Below, piece after piece: positions 9,293 through 34,554 of a stretch of DNA of 64,000 nucleotides; position 1 is the first letter of the stretch; every line of letters starts with the position of its first letter. Both the position numbers and the translations under genes were made by a program. Under the pieces are notes generated by a model. That model made no database searches, was not told where the DNA came from, and worked only from the letters and a program-made list of their open reading frames with translations. This stretch comes from Ignavibacteria bacterium (GTDB lineage: Bacteria > Bacteroidota > Ignavibacteria > Tepidaquicellales > OLB5), in NCBI GenBank assembly GCA_030835025.1, contig JAUQWS010000071.1:103730-167729 (forward strand), read 5' to 3'.

Positions 9293-9808
9293 ATGTCACT
9301 ATCATCATTCAACTTTAAGCAGTGGATAGAAGAAAACCGCCATCTCCTTAAACCGCCGGTGGGGAATAAGTGCATGGTCGATGGCGATCTGATAGTAATG
9401 GTCGTCGGGGGTCCCAATGCCAGGAAAGATTATCACTTCGAAGACGGCGCGGAGTTCTTTTACCAGATCGAGGGAGATATAGTTGTAAAAGTCATAGAAG
9501 ACGGCAAGCCGCATGATGTGCATATTAAAGAGGGAGAAATGTTCTACCTTCCCCCCAATACTCCGCACTCGCCGCAAAGGCCTGCAAATACTATCGGTCT
9601 TGTGATTGAGCGCAAACGCGATGAAAAAGAGTTTGATGCTTTCCAGTGGTACTGCGAAAATTGCGGCAATAAGCTCTACGAAGAATTTGTTAAGCTTGAT
9701 AACATTGTGACCCAGCTTCCTCCTATATTTGAGAGATTCTGGAATGACCTTGATAAGCGCACGTGCAAGCAATGCGGAACAGTAATGCAGCCGCCGGAGA
9801 AAAAATAA
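9293..9808 (+). CDS. nbaC: 3-hydroxyanthranilate 3,4-dioxygenase
   Basis: The 171-residue cupin matches the bacterial 3-hydroxyanthranilate dioxygenase pattern. Metal ligands are seen as His48, Glu54 and His92 (RKDYHFEDGAEFF, PPNTPHSPQRP). A rubredoxin-like C-terminal iron site has Cys121/Cys124 and Cys158/Cys161. It opens the ring of 3-hydroxyanthranilate to 2-amino-3-carboxymuconate semialdehyde in tryptophan breakdown. A strong AAGGAG lies 10 bases before the ATG. It is the first gene of the kynurenine cluster and is followed by an inserted four-helix-bundle cassette that separates it from the rest. Confidence 0.92.
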   Translation: MSLSSFNFKQWIEENRHLLKPPVGNKCMVDGDLIVMVVGGPNARKDYHFEDGAEFFYQIEGDIVVKVIEDGKPHDVHIKEGEMFYLPPNTPHSPQRPANTIGLVIERKRDEKEFDAFQWYCENCGNKLYEEFVKLDNIVTQLPPIFERFWNDLDKRTCKQCGTVMQPPEKK

Positions 9809-9843
9809 ATTACGAATTACGAATTACGAAATAGGAATTACGA
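9809..9843. repeat. left heptad array flanking four-helix-bundle cassette 1
   Basis: Five consecutive 7-base units: ATTACGA three times, AATAGGA, then ATTACGA, in exact 7-base register. They start right after the dioxygenase stop codon. An inverted array of the same unit lies at 10197-10224 on the other side of the pseudogene. Confidence 0.8.
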
Positions 9844-9855
9844 AATAATCGTTGA

Positions 9856-10209
9856 ATGAAAGACAATATAATTCTTGAAAAATCATACAAGTTTGCAGTC
9901 AGGATAATTAAGCTTTACCTGTTTTTAAAAGAAAAGAAAGAATTTGAGCTGGGAAACCAGATATTGAGAAGCGGAACTTCAATTGGTTCAAATGTTGAAT
10001 AAGCTGTCGGAGGATATTCAAGAAAAGATTTTTCCGCAAAGCTTGGTATAGCATACAGAGAAGCAAGAGAAACAAGATTCCGATTAAGGTTACTGAATGA
10101 TACGGGTTTTATAGATAAAAAACTCTTTGATTCGTTGTATGAGGATTGTGAAGAGATATTGAAAATTATCGGGACGATTCAAAAAACACTAAAGAAGAAT
10201 AATTCCTAA
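9856..10209 (+). pseudogene. four-helix-bundle (S23/TIGR02436-type) gene with in-frame stop
   Basis: Reading from the ATG at 9856 gives 117 codons that match the four-helix-bundle family. The sequence includes QILRSGTSIGSNVE and, later, AVGGYSRKDFSAKLGIAYREARETRFRL. Codon 49 (10000-10002) is TAA where family members have a second Glu (NVEEAVGG), so a single G-to-T change (GAA to TAA) breaks the gene. The downstream frame is otherwise intact to the TAA at 10207, so the mutation looks recent. The last codons and the stop lie inside the right-hand heptad array. Family members are small helical proteins linked to 23S rRNA insertions and to DGR accessory (Avd) proteins; none of those contexts is present here. 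Confidence 0.8.
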
Positions 10210-10224
10210 TTCGTAATTCCAAAT
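10197..10224. repeat. right heptad array flanking cassette 1, inverted
   Basis: GAATAAT, TCCTAAT, TCGTAAT and TCCAAAT run in 7-base register. On the minus strand they read ATTTGGA, ATTACGA, ATTAGGA, ATTATTC, the inverse of the left array at 9809-9843. Confidence 0.75.
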
Positions 10225-10228
10225 TGAT

Positions 10229-30936: not shown

Positions 30937-32262
30937 ATGGAAGTTGTAACAACGATACTTTACTTTTTAATTACGATAGTAATACTGGTATTTGTTCATG
31001 AGTTCGGGCATTTTGCTGCGGCAAAGCTGTGCAAAATGAGGGTGGATAAGTTCTACCTGTTTTTCGATTTCTTTAACCTGAAAATATTCAAGTTCGTAAA
31101 AGGTGATACCGAGTACGGGCTTGGTGTATTTCCTCTTGGCGGTTATGTTAAGGTTGCAGGTATGATAGATGAGAGCATGGATAAAGAGTTTATCAACCAG
31201 CCTCCCCAGCCGTGGGAATTCCGCTCAAAGCCTGTTTGGCAGAGAATGTTCGTAATCACCGCCGGTGTAATTATGAATACGCTTCTGGCATTTGCTATAT
31301 TCTATACCATCAATCTTGCCCAGGGCAAGACAAGAATGGAAACCAGTACGATAGGTTATGTTGCGGAGAATTCACTTGCTTCCAAATTCGGAATTATGCC
31401 GGGTGATAAGATAATTTCCGTTAACGGAAAAAAAGTTGAGTTCTGGGATGAAGTGCGCGGTGATATTTTCATCGAAAGCATGGGTGAGGACGTTACACTT
31501 CGCACATCAAGAAGCGGTGTTGAAAAGGATATTTTCTTATCGAAAGATAACCTTAGAGACCTGAATGAAAGAACACTTGGGATATTCCCTGAAAAGATGG
31601 TCCCTGAAATTCAGCAGGTTGAATCAACAAGGCCAGCAGGTAAGCTTGGTCTGCAAAAGGGTGATGTTATCACTGAAGCAAACGGTATTGGCATTGTTCA
31701 CTCACAGCATTTTGTTGATGTTATTAAAAGCAGCCCGGGCAAAGATATTTCTGTCAAATGGATGCGCGGTTCAAATGAAATGACAGGTACAGTTAAACCT
31801 GATGCCGACAGTACTATCGGAATTGCCATTGGTACGTATGCCGGAACTGTAAAGACTGTTAACTATAATGTTATCTCAGCGATTCCACAGGGATTCAACG
31901 ACCTGTGGCATTACGGTGTTGTGCTGTTCGTAAAATCAATGTGGAAGATCATCAAGGGCGATATAGCTTTTTCAAAGGCTGTTGGCGGACCCGTAAAGAT
32001 CGCGCAGTATGCAGGGCAGTCTGCTGAAGGCGGTCTGCTTTCATTCCTCGGCTTTATGGCAATGCTTTCTATCACTCTTGCAATTATAAACATACTGCCG
32101 TTCCCTGCGCTTGATGGCGGGCACTTTATGTTCCTGCTTTATGAGGGTATTTTCAGAAAACCGGTTTCTCATAAAATACAGATAGTCGTACAGAATGTAG
32201 GATTCCTTTTGCTTATGGCGTTTATGGCATTCGTTGTCTATAACGATATAATTCATATATAG
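30937..32262 (+). CDS. rseP: RseP-type site-2 zinc metalloprotease
   Basis: 441 residues. The zinc motif HEFGH (His21, Glu22, His25) lies in the first membrane helix, followed by GLGVFPLGGYVKVAGM. Two PDZ domains are seen (KFGIMPGDKIISVNGKKVEFW and KLGLQKGDVITEANGIG). The C-terminal NILPFPALDGGHFMFLLYE carries the LDG Asp ligand between membrane helices. It cleaves membrane proteins within the bilayer, for example anti-sigma factors or signal-peptide remnants. Its TAG stop abuts the left repeat array of the second four-helix-bundle cassette. Confidence 0.95.
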   Translation: MEVVTTILYFLITIVILVFVHEFGHFAAAKLCKMRVDKFYLFFDFFNLKIFKFVKGDTEYGLGVFPLGGYVKVAGMIDESMDKEFINQPPQPWEFRSKPVWQRMFVITAGVIMNTLLAFAIFYTINLAQGKTRMETSTIGYVAENSLASKFGIMPGDKIISVNGKKVEFWDEVRGDIFIESMGEDVTLRTSRSGVEKDIFLSKDNLRDLNERTLGIFPEKMVPEIQQVESTRPAGKLGLQKGDVITEANGIGIVHSQHFVDVIKSSPGKDISVKWMRGSNEMTGTVKPDADSTIGIAIGTYAGTVKTVNYNVISAIPQGFNDLWHYGVVLFVKSMWKIIKGDIAFSKAVGGPVKIAQYAGQSAEGGLLSFLGFMAMLSITLAIINILPFPALDGGHFMFLLYEGIFRKPVSHKIQIVVQNVGFLLLMAFMAFVVYNDIIHI

Positions 32263-32293
32263 TGAATTTGTGATTTTGCGATTTGGTGATTTA
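32262..32293. repeat. left octad array flanking four-helix-bundle cassette 2
   Basis: Four 8-base units in exact register: GTGAATTT, GTGATTTT, GCGATTTG, GTGATTTA. They begin at the last base of the rseP stop and end at the first base of the next ATG. An inverted partner array lies at 32631-32668. Confidence 0.75.
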
Positions 32294-32649
32294 TGAATGC
32301 CCAAGAGCTAAGAGACAGGACAAAGAACTTTGCATTACGAATAATAAGGTTATTTAAGGCCCTTCCAAAAAATGTAGAATCACAGGTTATTGGCAAACAG
32401 CTTCTAAGGTCAGCACTTTCCGTAGCAGCCAATTACCGTGCTGCCTGCAGGGCAAGATCCCGCCGGGAGTTCATCTCCAAAATTTCAATTGTAGTTGAAG
32501 AAGCAGACGAGGTACTTTGCTGGCTTGAAATGCTCTCCGATGCCGGAATAGTTACTGAAAAAAGGCTGCAGAATATTTCGACAGAAGCTCTTGAGATTCT
32601 CAAAATAATGGCTTCATCCAGAAAAACCACTGCATCACCCAATCACTAA
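32293..32649 (+). CDS. four-helix-bundle protein (S23/TIGR02436-type)
   Basis: 118 residues, almost entirely helical: NAQELRDRTKNFALRIIRLFKAL, IGKQLLRSALSVAANYRAACRARS, REFISKISIVVEEADEVLCWLEMLSDAG, and a C-terminal helix EALEILKIMASS. The second helix motif (QLLRSxxSVAANYxAACRARS) is the family signature. Such proteins are found in 23S rRNA intervening sequences and as Avd accessory factors of diversity-generating retroelements; neither is present here. The last codons (SPNH) and the stop fall inside the right repeat array, as in the broken copy near 10 kb. It is inserted between rseP and the serine-biosynthesis fusion, on the same strand. Confidence 0.88.
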   Translation: MNAQELRDRTKNFALRIIRLFKALPKNVESQVIGKQLLRSALSVAANYRAACRARSRREFISKISIVVEEADEVLCWLEMLSDAGIVTEKRLQNISTEALEILKIMASSRKTTASPNH

Positions 32650-32668
32650 TTCACAATTCACAAATTGC
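32631..32668. repeat. right array flanking cassette 2, inverted
   Basis: TGCATCAC, CCAATCAC, TAATTCAC, AATTCAC, AAATTGC are 7-8-base units, the inverse of GTGAATTT/GTGATTGG. The array contains the stop of the four-helix-bundle gene and the TTG start of the next gene. Confidence 0.7.
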
Positions 32669-34554
32669 ACGATAAGTATTTCATACTCGATTTCGACAGC
32701 ACTTTCATCAAAGTAGAAGCTCTTGATGAACTTGCCGCTATATCCCTTAATAAGGATAAAGATAAAGAAACCAAGCTTGCACAGATCAGGAAGCTTACAG
32801 AGCGGGCTATGAACGGGGAAATGTCCTTTTCCGTATCCCTTTCACAAAGGCTAAGGCTGATGAACGCGACTAAGCAGCATCTGGAAAAGCTTGTGAAAAA
32901 ACTCTCGAGTGAGGTTTCCAGATCAATTAAAACAAACAGGCATTTCTTCAGCAAAAATTCCGGTAATGTTATCATCATATCAGGCGGATTCAAAGAATAC
33001 ATATGTCCCATAACCCGTAAATTCGGCATACCGGATAGCAATGTGTATGCCAATAAACTGATTATTAACTCCAAAGGAATAATTACCGGGTTTGACAAAA
33101 AGTGCAGACTGGCCAAGCCAAACGGCAAAGTTAAGCAGCTTAAGGCTCTCAGACTAAAGGGAGAATTGATAGTGATTGGTGACGGTTATACTGATTATGA
33201 GCTTAAGAAATCCGGACTCATCAGCAGGTTCTATGCTTTTACGGAAAATGTTTCACGCAAGACTGTGACTGATGAAGCTGACCACATTGCACCGAGCTTT
33301 GATGAATTCCTTTATGACAGCAGGCTCCCGATGTCAATTTCATACCCAAAGAACAGGATAAAGGTTCTCTTGCTTGAAAATATCCATAAGAATGCAGTGA
33401 GATTATTCCGCACTGAGGGTTATTCAGTGGAATCGATCAGCAGAAGCATCGGCGAAGCGGAGCTTGCTGAAAAGATAAAAGATGTATCGATACTTGGAAT
33501 TCGTTCCAAAACAAACGTAACCGAAAAAGTTCTGGTAAATGCCAAAAAGCTGCTTGCTATTGGCGCTTTTTGCGTCGGGACAAACCAGATCGATCTTGCT
33601 GCAAGCTCCAAAAGGGGAGTGATAGTCTTCAACGCGCCATTCAGTAATACCCGCAGCGTTGTTGAGCTTGCACTTGGCGAGATTATAATGCTGATGCGCG
33701 GTATTACCGATAAGAGCAAAAGACTGCATAAAGGGGAGTGGGATAAAACCTCCGAGGGCAGCTATGAAGTGCGCGGAAAAAAACTCGGCATTATCGGGTA
33801 CGGCAAGATAGGCTCGCAGCTATCTGTACTTGCAGAAGATATGGGCATGGAAGTTTATTATTATGATAAAGTGGAAAAGCTTGCGCTTGGTAATGCAAAA
33901 AGAGCCCTTTCTCTTAAAGAGCTTCTCAAAAAATCGGATATTGTTACTCTGCATGTTGATGGAAGTCCCGATAATGTGAATATGATGGGTGAGAAGGAAT
34001 TCAGCCTGATGAAAGACGGGGTTATCTTCCTTAACTTGAGCAGGGGATTTGTTGTGGATATTGCAGCACTCAAAAATGCAGTCAGGAGCGGTAAAGTTAG
34101 GGGGGCAGCAATCGATGTATTTCCCAAAGAGCCGGAAAGCAATGATGAGAAGTTCAAAAGCCCGCTGCAAAACCTACCGAATGTAATACTCACTCCCCAC
34201 ATTGGCGGCAGTACAGATGAAGCACAGGTTAATATTGCAAATTTTGTGCCGGGCAAAGTTATTGATTTCATTAACAGCGGCAACTCTTATTACAGTGTTA
34301 ACTTCCCGAATATTCAGCTGCCTGCATTTTCCGGAGCGCACAGGCTTATACACATTCACCGTAATGTACCCGGAATACTCGCAGAGATAAATTCCGTTTT
34401 TGCACGCCACAGCATTAATATTATCGGGCAGTATTTAAAGACTGATGAGATTATCGGTTACGTAATTACCGATATAAGCCGCAAATACAATCCCAGTCTG
34501 ATCAATGAGCTGAAAGCGGTCGCATACACTGTAAGGTTCAGGATTTTGTATTAA
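32665..34554 (+). CDS. fused phosphoserine phosphatase and D-3-phosphoglycerate dehydrogenase
   Basis: 629 residues. Residues 1-210 form a HAD phosphatase: ILDFDSTFIKVEALDEL with Asp9 and Asp11, IIISGGFKEYI, and VIGDGYTDYELKKSG. From about 230 onward is a D-2-hydroxyacid dehydrogenase of the PGDH type: GAFCVGTNQIDLAAS, LGIIGYGKIGSQ for NAD, NLSRGFVVDIAAL, and LTPHIGGSTDEAQ with the catalytic His. An ACT domain closes the protein (HRNVPGILAEINSVFARHSINIIGQY). It would join the first and last steps of serine synthesis in one chain; the transaminase is not here. The only plausible start is a TTG inside the repeat flanking cassette 2. Confidence 0.9.
   Translation: MHDKYFILDFDSTFIKVEALDELAAISLNKDKDKETKLAQIRKLTERAMNGEMSFSVSLSQRLRLMNATKQHLEKLVKKLSSEVSRSIKTNRHFFSKNSGNVIIISGGFKEYICPITRKFGIPDSNVYANKLIINSKGIITGFDKKCRLAKPNGKVKQLKALRLKGELIVIGDGYTDYELKKSGLISRFYAFTENVSRKTVTDEADHIAPSFDEFLYDSRLPMSISYPKNRIKVLLLENIHKNAVRLFRTEGYSVESISRSIGEAELAEKIKDVSILGIRSKTNVTEKVLVNAKKLLAIGAFCVGTNQIDLAASSKRGVIVFNAPFSNTRSVVELALGEIIMLMRGITDKSKRLHKGEWDKTSEGSYEVRGKKLGIIGYGKIGSQLSVLAEDMGMEVYYYDKVEKLALGNAKRALSLKELLKKSDIVTLHVDGSPDNVNMMGEKEFSLMKDGVIFLNLSRGFVVDIAALKNAVRSGKVRGAAIDVFPKEPESNDEKFKSPLQNLPNVILTPHIGGSTDEAQVNIANFVPGKVIDFINSGNSYYSVNFPNIQLPAFSGAHRLIHIHRNVPGILAEINSVFARHSINIIGQYLKTDEIIGYVITDISRKYNPSLINELKAVAYTVRFRILY

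Follow-up and report, generated by a model that had tools for sequence, protein, structure and literature searches.

Inverted arrays of short words, matched within a locus and differing between loci, bound a widespread compact cassette with a four-helix-bundle gene

How do the two ends of a small genetic unit come to share a word that most other copies of the unit do not use? This question is raised by the junction of rseP with a serB–serA fusion gene in an Ignavibacteria bacterium, which lies in a window of 64,000 nt (the whole stretch of DNA that was analysed). The source genome of the window, G000, measures 3.03 Mb. The upstream host gene, rseP (30937..32262, forward strand), encodes a RIP metalloprotease (TIGR00054, E=1.6e-89) and ends with a TAG stop codon at 32260–32262 that touches the left array (32262..32292, forward strand). 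This array, recognized from its sequence and from arm pairing, consists of four GTGAATTT-like units of 8, 8, 8 and 7 nt, reading GTGAATTT GTGATTTT GCGATTTG GTGATTT. It is followed directly by an intact four-helix-bundle (4HB) gene of the 23S rRNA IVP/S23 family, encoding 118 aa (32293..32649, forward strand; ATG at 32293, stop TAA at 32647–32649). The right array, recognized from its sequence, is inverted (reverse strand, about 32634..32662) and holds about four units, among them AATCACT and AATTCAC, the latter being the reverse complement of GTGAATT. The downstream host gene (phosphoserine phosphatase/phosphoglycerate dehydrogenase; 32665..34554, forward strand) has a TTG start and matches NF008759 (E=2.5e-192) and TIGR00338 (E=6.7e-22).

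An earlier note on this DNA had described a 4HB gene between inverted arrays of a short unit, and this layout was confirmed for 32262–32662. The arms at 32268–32290 and 32634–32656 are 83% complementary in an inverted-repeat search, their local score of 15.0 was reached by 0/2000 dinucleotide-shuffled pairs (shuffle maximum 13.5), the right arm scored best in its row of 53, and the arms are paired in the predicted MFE RNA fold of the cassette. The left array also begins and ends where the note had placed it, on the final base of the rseP stop and at the ATG. The 8-base unit that had been proposed for both arrays holds for the left array, but the right array is spaced at 7 nt; likewise, the right array does contain the 4HB stop, but the TTG start, which had been placed inside the array, follows it. 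The further claim that two copies in the window share an architecture and differ in their repeat was borne out by cassette 1, which has AATTACG-like units of 7 nt. Its left array (9808..9848, forward strand) starts in the TAA of the upstream gene, its 4HB gene (9856..10204, forward strand) contains one in-frame TAA, its right array (10198..10228, reverse strand) is inverted, and its arm score of 18.5 was equalled by 0/2000 dinucleotide-shuffled pairs. The stretch 32262–32662 is a copy of a compact cassette with a wide distribution, in which a small gene lies between two inverted arrays of one word of 7 to 9 nt.

The protein encoded at rseP–serBA belongs to the four-helix-bundle/23S rRNA IVP family, with matches to PF05635 (E=5.8e-19, 68.7 bits; cut-off 33.8) and TIGR02436 (E=3.7e-26, 91.5 bits; cut-off 24); PF05635 was the sole family matched by the cassette in a profile search. 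Its AlphaFold2 model is predicted to form four helices (pLDDT 94), and the best PDB match of this model is 2rld (query-normalised TM 0.88), with 2gsc also matched, both being S23-family crystal structures. A weaker match was to Avd (4dwl; query-normalised TM 0.75, Foldseek E 0.03), and the model also matches a chain of the DGR ribonucleoprotein 8ub7 (TM 0.77, E 0.018). The predicted fold is like that of the DGR accessory protein Avd, yet, unlike a diversity-generating retroelement, the cassette encodes only the 4HB gene and no reverse transcriptase. A Xanthomonas S23 protein is described in a passage of PMC4990558 as a homopentameric ring.

The generality of the layout was assessed with an arm test, in which the 200 nt upstream of a gene were aligned with the reverse-complemented 200 nt that cover its stop and the DNA beyond. 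The genus set comprised 58 TIGR02436 matches in 13 genomes, and 53 loci remained after removal of a weak partial match and of four matches whose flanks were too short. The mean arm score was 19.7 within loci versus 9.8 between loci, the best of 10000 permutations was not above 12.1, and 46/53 loci lay at or above the 95th percentile of mismatched pairs. Across the phylum, 4HB matches were found in 114 of 148 genomes. The phylum set, which was not random (30 loci returned and 40 picked among the best-scoring matches listed, yielding 72 gene hits, 69 with enough flank), gave 15.1 within versus 8.6 between, with 52/69 loci at or above the 95th percentile. The named set, the best 80 of at least 578 confirmed relatives, extended over Proteobacteria, Cyanobacteria, Planctomycetes, Acidobacteria, Chloroflexi, Spirochaetes, candidate phyla and Bacteroidota; its 77 loci with enough flank gave 20.4 within versus 8.5 between, 62 reaching the 95th percentile of mismatched pairs and 15 falling below it, and within-locus matching was also seen among loci with G-rich units. 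In neither of these two sets did any of 10000 permutations reach the observed mean. A control with ribosomal protein L29 (30 loci) gave 8.05 within versus 7.75 between, with 543/10000 permutations as high and 0/30 loci at an arm score of 13 or more. Arms that match within a locus and differ between loci are a general feature of 4HB loci.

The architecture, which the earlier note had attached to the 4HB gene, is not private to it. In an array-first scan of 800 kb of G005, a complete genome of the same genus, six inverted array pairs had an arm score of at least 16 (next best 12), four of them around 4HB genes and two around genes of the GxxExxY family (TIGR04256/PF13366, PDDEXK_3), a family of the PD-(D/E)XK superfamily and different from 4HB. 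The scan recovers roughly one in two known 4HB arms (59 left and 63 right of 122), and it missed a third GxxExxY cassette, L254 with an arm score of 19.5, that lies in the scanned stretch. G005 contains five 4HB and eight GxxExxY matches in all, and the genus contains 60 GxxExxY matches in 12 of 13 genomes. Thirty-two of these 60 were examined, and the 31 with enough flank gave arm scores of 15.5 within versus 9.3 between loci (0/10000 permutations reaching the mean; 22/31 at or above the 95th percentile). GxxExxY is present in 50 of 99 phylum genomes, and 29 of the 30 phylum loci returned gave 16.2 versus 9.3 (0/10000 permutations). GxxExxY cassettes are therefore of the same class, with inverted short-unit arrays that match within the locus. 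Both 4HB (S23) and GxxExxY genes have a wide distribution, and neither is given a specific role in the family libraries that were searched; the shared array layout makes these two orphan families parts of one element type.

The two cargoes are distinguished by the spacing of their units, which was judged on loci with an arm score of at least 13. The best spacing was 7 nt in 116/151 4HB loci (31/48 genus, 33/44 phylum and 52/59 named) versus 0/43 GxxExxY loci, in which 36/43 had a spacing of 8–10 nt. Among GxxExxY loci of the genus (23) the spacing was 9 nt in 14, 8 nt in seven and another value in two; in the phylum (20 loci), where the arms are less regular, it was 8 nt in three, 9 nt in six, 10 nt in five and another value in six. 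Array spacing depends on the cargo family, which suggests a protein that contacts the array at a fixed pitch.

The letters of the unit behave differently from its spacing, in that units differ between cassettes of one genome. When compared at equal protein similarity (0.6–0.8), 22/25 pairs at the same site shared a unit versus 4/13 (genus) and 3/20 (phylum) pairs at different sites, and because sharing is high at the same site and low across sites, units mostly change with insertion. A fixed terminal repeat, with so few different-site pairs sharing units, was rejected, as the earlier note had argued. That note had left a choice between an array made or expanded on insertion and an array that is a property of the target, and the latter was not supported: at the same junction a unit was shared in 0/3 pairs with unrelated 4HB proteins and in 1/6 pairs with 4HB proteins at similarity 0.5–0.6, and empty junctions free of arrays occur. 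Units are nevertheless partly heritable, since among different-site pairs with a similarity of at least 0.5 the unit was common to 20/212 versus 4.7 expected (0/5000 permutations). This signal appears only among close proteins; over all different-site pairs, unit and protein similarity were not correlated (Spearman −0.03; Mantel r 0.03, 224/2000 permutations as high). On these counts, a unit is tied to its insertion more closely than to protein or site, and is to some degree inherited. Concerted evolution of the two arms within orthologous sites was not supported, as in 9/11 sites the left arms of orthologues match each other as well as or better than a cassette's own two arms. Unit numbers, read by eye, vary between orthologues.

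Comparison of filled and empty junctions bears on how the cassettes arrive and leave. The rseP–serBA junction is filled in one of 13 genus genomes, and the other 12, in which the 4HB gene is lacking, have by eye a terminator-like hairpin in the rseP–serBA spacer that is absent in G000. The native spacer of about 60 nt, hairpin included, is thus gone in G000, a loss that simple insertion leaves unexplained. The earlier note had raised the possibility that one array unit pre-exists at the empty site; by eye, no pre-existing array was seen in 11/12 of these genomes, and in the remaining one, G008, a short GTGAAATAGAGAA array-like stub lies just after the rseP stop and may be a remnant. At livJ–livH six genomes are filled, four (G000, G002, G003 and G011) have 1 nt or less from stop to start, two have other spacers and one has no match. 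The junction in G000 itself is a clean TAATG, and G005, filled at this site, and G002, empty, are sisters in the species tree (support 100). By eye, no array was found at the empty livJ–livH junctions of these four genomes, at empty paaA–paaB in G002 and G003 or at empty 3HAO–ACMSD in G005 and G012. The UvrD–EVE junction carries a cassette in G005, G007, G011 and G012 and a solo array without a gene in G003 and G008. Because G003 falls among genomes that carry the cassette (support 99; support 65 for its precise position), the solo array is likelier to be the remnant of a lost cassette than a landing pad, although G001, G002 and G010, with neither cassette nor array there, make this reading tentative. 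A by-eye comparison of filled and empty sites at 3HAO–ACMSD, paaA–paaB, UvrD–EVE, livJ–livH and rseP placed the boundaries at stop and start and found no clear target-site duplication. The nearest proteins to that of the window cassette are those of the six livJ–livH cassettes (similarity 0.54–0.58), and in the protein tree it falls in one clade with livJ–livH and livF/livG cassettes that extends over four junctions. Hopping of the livJ–livH cassette itself to rseP was not supported, because the six livJ–livH proteins group together (support 86) to the exclusion of the window protein.

In the genus, ORFs were called on both sides of 52 4HB cassettes; 50 of these are flanked by two genes that run in the cassette's own direction, and none is antisense to both neighbours. 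This orientation is weaker elsewhere (phylum 48/64, six antisense to both; named 41/65, seven antisense to both), and ORF calling by length, which is noisy in GC-rich DNA, may add to the weaker counts. Arm placement was judged on loci whose arms match and which have a neighbour in sense. The distance from the upstream stop to the beginning of the 4HB left arm is at most 20 nt in 39/47 (genus), 30/37 (phylum) and 32/39 (named), and that from the end of the right arm to the next start is at most 20 nt in 28/45, 27/36 and 26/41, respectively; GxxExxY arms are placed less tightly (13/19 at the stop, 8/18 at the start). The sites include carA–carB, paaA–paaB, livJ–livH, livF–aminotransferase and UvrD–EVE, names that were read from flanking proteins and are not family calls. 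The stop/start placement may be a matter of what is tolerated rather than of targeting, and a need for expression may lie behind the sense orientation.

For the earlier note, similar inverted arrays in random intergenic regions without the gene would have spoken against its reading, and the outcome here was split: all six inverted pairs in the G005 stretch surround a 4HB or GxxExxY gene, but solo arrays of the same unit types without any gene are common there. In a first set of 22 non-coding arrays without a 4HB gene, chosen by eye in G005, 18 matched cassette arms of other genomes above column-shuffled controls (40 shuffles each), and 15 of the 16 between co-directional genes were in left orientation. 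An automatic count over the 800 kb of G005 gave 23 unambiguous solo arrays, of which 17 start at an upstream stop in left orientation and one in right orientation, against a null of 5–6%. This one-sidedness is not a detection bias, because left and right arms of known cassettes were detected equally well. Solo arrays are few in two other genomes (3 and 0 unambiguous per 400 kb, none at a stop). Probably, the solo left arrays were left by deletion of the gene and the right arm.

We tentatively favour, as a reading that may well be right, a minimal mobile cassette whose arrays are likely its fold-back ends, the movement being what we infer from the distribution of the copies. Such an element is the simplest way to account for arms that match within a locus, units that are private, junctions that are empty and a protein clade that occupies several sites. 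In our working hypothesis the arms would anneal into a panhandle on one DNA strand, and this panhandle would be the substrate for insertion and loss. The encoded protein (predicted to be S23/Avd-like, or PDDEXK-like in the case of GxxExxY) would bind the array at a pitch of its own, each insertion would bring a largely new unit sequence, loss of gene and right arm would leave the solo left array, and the host operon is predicted to provide expression. It is odd, for the predicted binding step, that a protein should tolerate many unit sequences, and no transposase is encoded in the cassette. A resident reverse transcriptase as the mover was not supported, since the complete genome G005 has cassettes and no reverse transcriptase match; such a match is absent, at E 0.001, in 8/13 genus genomes and present in 59/148 phylum genomes. 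Vertical inheritance with numerous clean losses, or an exchange of flanking DNA, could also produce the pattern of presence and absence of cassettes. A broader proposition, possible but rather doubtful, is that these are minimal mobile elements found domain-wide, in which the protein would set the array pitch, the letters would be rewritten at each insertion, the element would land at stop/start boundaries and solo arrays would be shed, with the intervening sequences (IVSs) of rRNA and orphan heptamer arrays as special cases. What the mobile-element account chiefly fails to predict is the strand specificity of the solo arrays, whose strong one-sidedness is not expected of ends that act as DNA. 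The solo arrays fit a regulatory or an RNA role better, and for this reason these rivals keep substantial weight.

One of these rivals, which we consider unlikely though well worth weighing, is that insertion is tolerated at the RNA level in the mode of a 23S IVS: the arrays would pair in the operon transcript, the small gene would be looped out and RNase III would cut, bringing the upstream stop beside the downstream start. The protein family shared with rRNA IVSs, the sense orientation of genus cassettes, arms that abut stop and start, and the pairing of the arms in the predicted fold of the window cassette all agree with this, as does the Coxiella IVS, for which a passage of PMC4990558 gives a terminal stem of 28 bp that RNase III cuts and, ahead of the ORF, heptamers in tandem. 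However, arm mismatches are unbiased, G-U numbering 168 versus A-C 176 in 173 loci (p=0.71), the sense duplex is stronger than the antisense duplex in just 113/230 loci, and a solo left array has nothing to loop out. Selected RNA pairing of the arms was not supported, as a G-U bias is lacking; the symmetry of the mismatches indicates pairing as DNA rather than selected pairing as RNA, and thus makes fold-back single-stranded DNA the likelier form. Regulation is the other rival: if the protein bound the unit in mRNA or DNA, cassettes would be self-regulated and the solo arrays would be the regulon. Consistent with this are the 18/22 solo arrays that match cassette arms of other genomes, the 17/23 that start at a stop in left orientation, the cargo-specific spacing and the predicted likeness to Avd of a retroelement ribonucleoprotein. 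We nevertheless regard it as improbable, as solo arrays are rare in the two other genomes, GxxExxY is unrelated to 4HB yet has the same layout, and units differ among the cassettes of one genome, so that one regulon per cassette would be needed. Neutral slippage in AT-rich spacers of operons, in which a small gene has come to lie by chance, would account for arrays that are degenerate, of low complexity and variable in unit number between orthologues (by eye), but it is very hard to reconcile with a cargo-specific spacing and with arm matching that is absent for L29 and strong for 4HB, including loci with G-rich units, and we give it little credence.

With the mobile cassette as the preferred reading, known systems offer partial parallels. 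In MITEs, insertion sequences and REP/RAYT systems, inverted ends flank a short mobile stretch, and derivatives without a gene occur. The cassettes are like these in their inverted ends and in the solo arrays as gene-less derivatives; unlike MITEs and insertion sequences they have no fixed terminal sequence, their ends being periodic arrays with cargo-specific spacing, and unlike REP/RAYT they contain no HUH Y1 transposase, only PF05635 being matched. Closest in content is the 23S rRNA IVS, which also has an S23-family (PF05635) ORF between complementary ends. That of Coxiella is described in parts of PMC4990558 as about 430 nt long with an S23p ORF and complementary ends, two or three tandem heptamers and a degenerate copy lying just before the ORF, and is termed a selfish genetic element in the abstract. 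The cassettes differ in that the ends are whole arrays with units that vary by insertion and in that the window cassette lies between the protein genes rseP and serBA, not in rRNA; being outside rRNA, they were not filed as IVSs. At the named loci, 40 of the 80 were scanned for rRNA families, with 0 matches, and one locus had two tRNAs. The array-bounded layout suggests a setting outside rRNA for 23S rRNA IVSs.

The cassettes also offer a source for unexplained intergenic heptamer arrays. Among the matches listed, open-access titles and abstract openings describe no arrays around 4HB or GxxExxY genes. In the P6b region of the Nostoc trnL intron, the relevant passage of PMC4476775 reports a heptanucleotide stem with paired arms of degenerate TDNGATT or NNTGAGT, replaced whole and repeatedly, and its authors raise mobile elements as a possibility; unlike a cassette, P6b lies within a group I intron, and this passage does not mention an ORF between the arms. 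Neither it nor the heptamer passage on Xanthomonas (PMC4692102) draws a link to a 4HB gene. The term 'helix bundle' was not found in the texts of PMC4692102 and PMC4679880, which under that name make no link to a 4HB gene, and, in the parts concerned, each of these papers treats one unit, unlike the many of the cassettes. According to these parts, the intergenic TAACTGA arrays of Beggiatoaceae stand mostly just before start codons (PMC4679880), and the GGGAATC arrays of Xanthomonas are intergenic and nearer the 5' neighbouring ORF, with 70 and 75 convergent pairs in two genomes (PMC4692102).

The spacer between rseP and serBA retains a hairpin (TGGCC or TGACC paired with a distal GGTCA) followed by a T run in all 12 of the other genomes of the genus (loci L036–L047), and in the genome that carries the window both the hairpin and the T run are absent and serBA is without an ATG start. 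In the window, serB and serA form one fused open reading frame (32665–34554), the TTG start of which lies at the edge of the array. In G008, a genome of the same subclade, a stub of approximately 20 nt directly follows the rseP stop (L047) and resembles the unit of the type found at the livJ–livH junction (GTGAAATAGAGAA); this stub is perhaps a leftover of the window's cassette.

The four-helix-bundle gene of cassette 1, the other cassette of the window, (9856–10204) is broken by a single in-frame TAA, and its flanking arrays remain well matched. On a contig of Vreelandella sedimenti, a four-helix-bundle gene lies within exceptionally long inverted arrays of a 7-nt unit (L327; aligned arm >170 nt), possibly a young or expanding copy. 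GTAGGCA arrays are common to several Mesorhizobium loci (L352, L366, L369 and L381), which provide useful material for testing movement at the level of strains.

Among cassettes carrying the unrelated GxxExxY family, a word similar to ACCAC or ACCGC often forms the outer beginning of the arms (L240, L243, L251, L254, L265 and other loci), and to judge from this recurrence the terminus may be more fixed there than in the four-helix-bundle cassettes.
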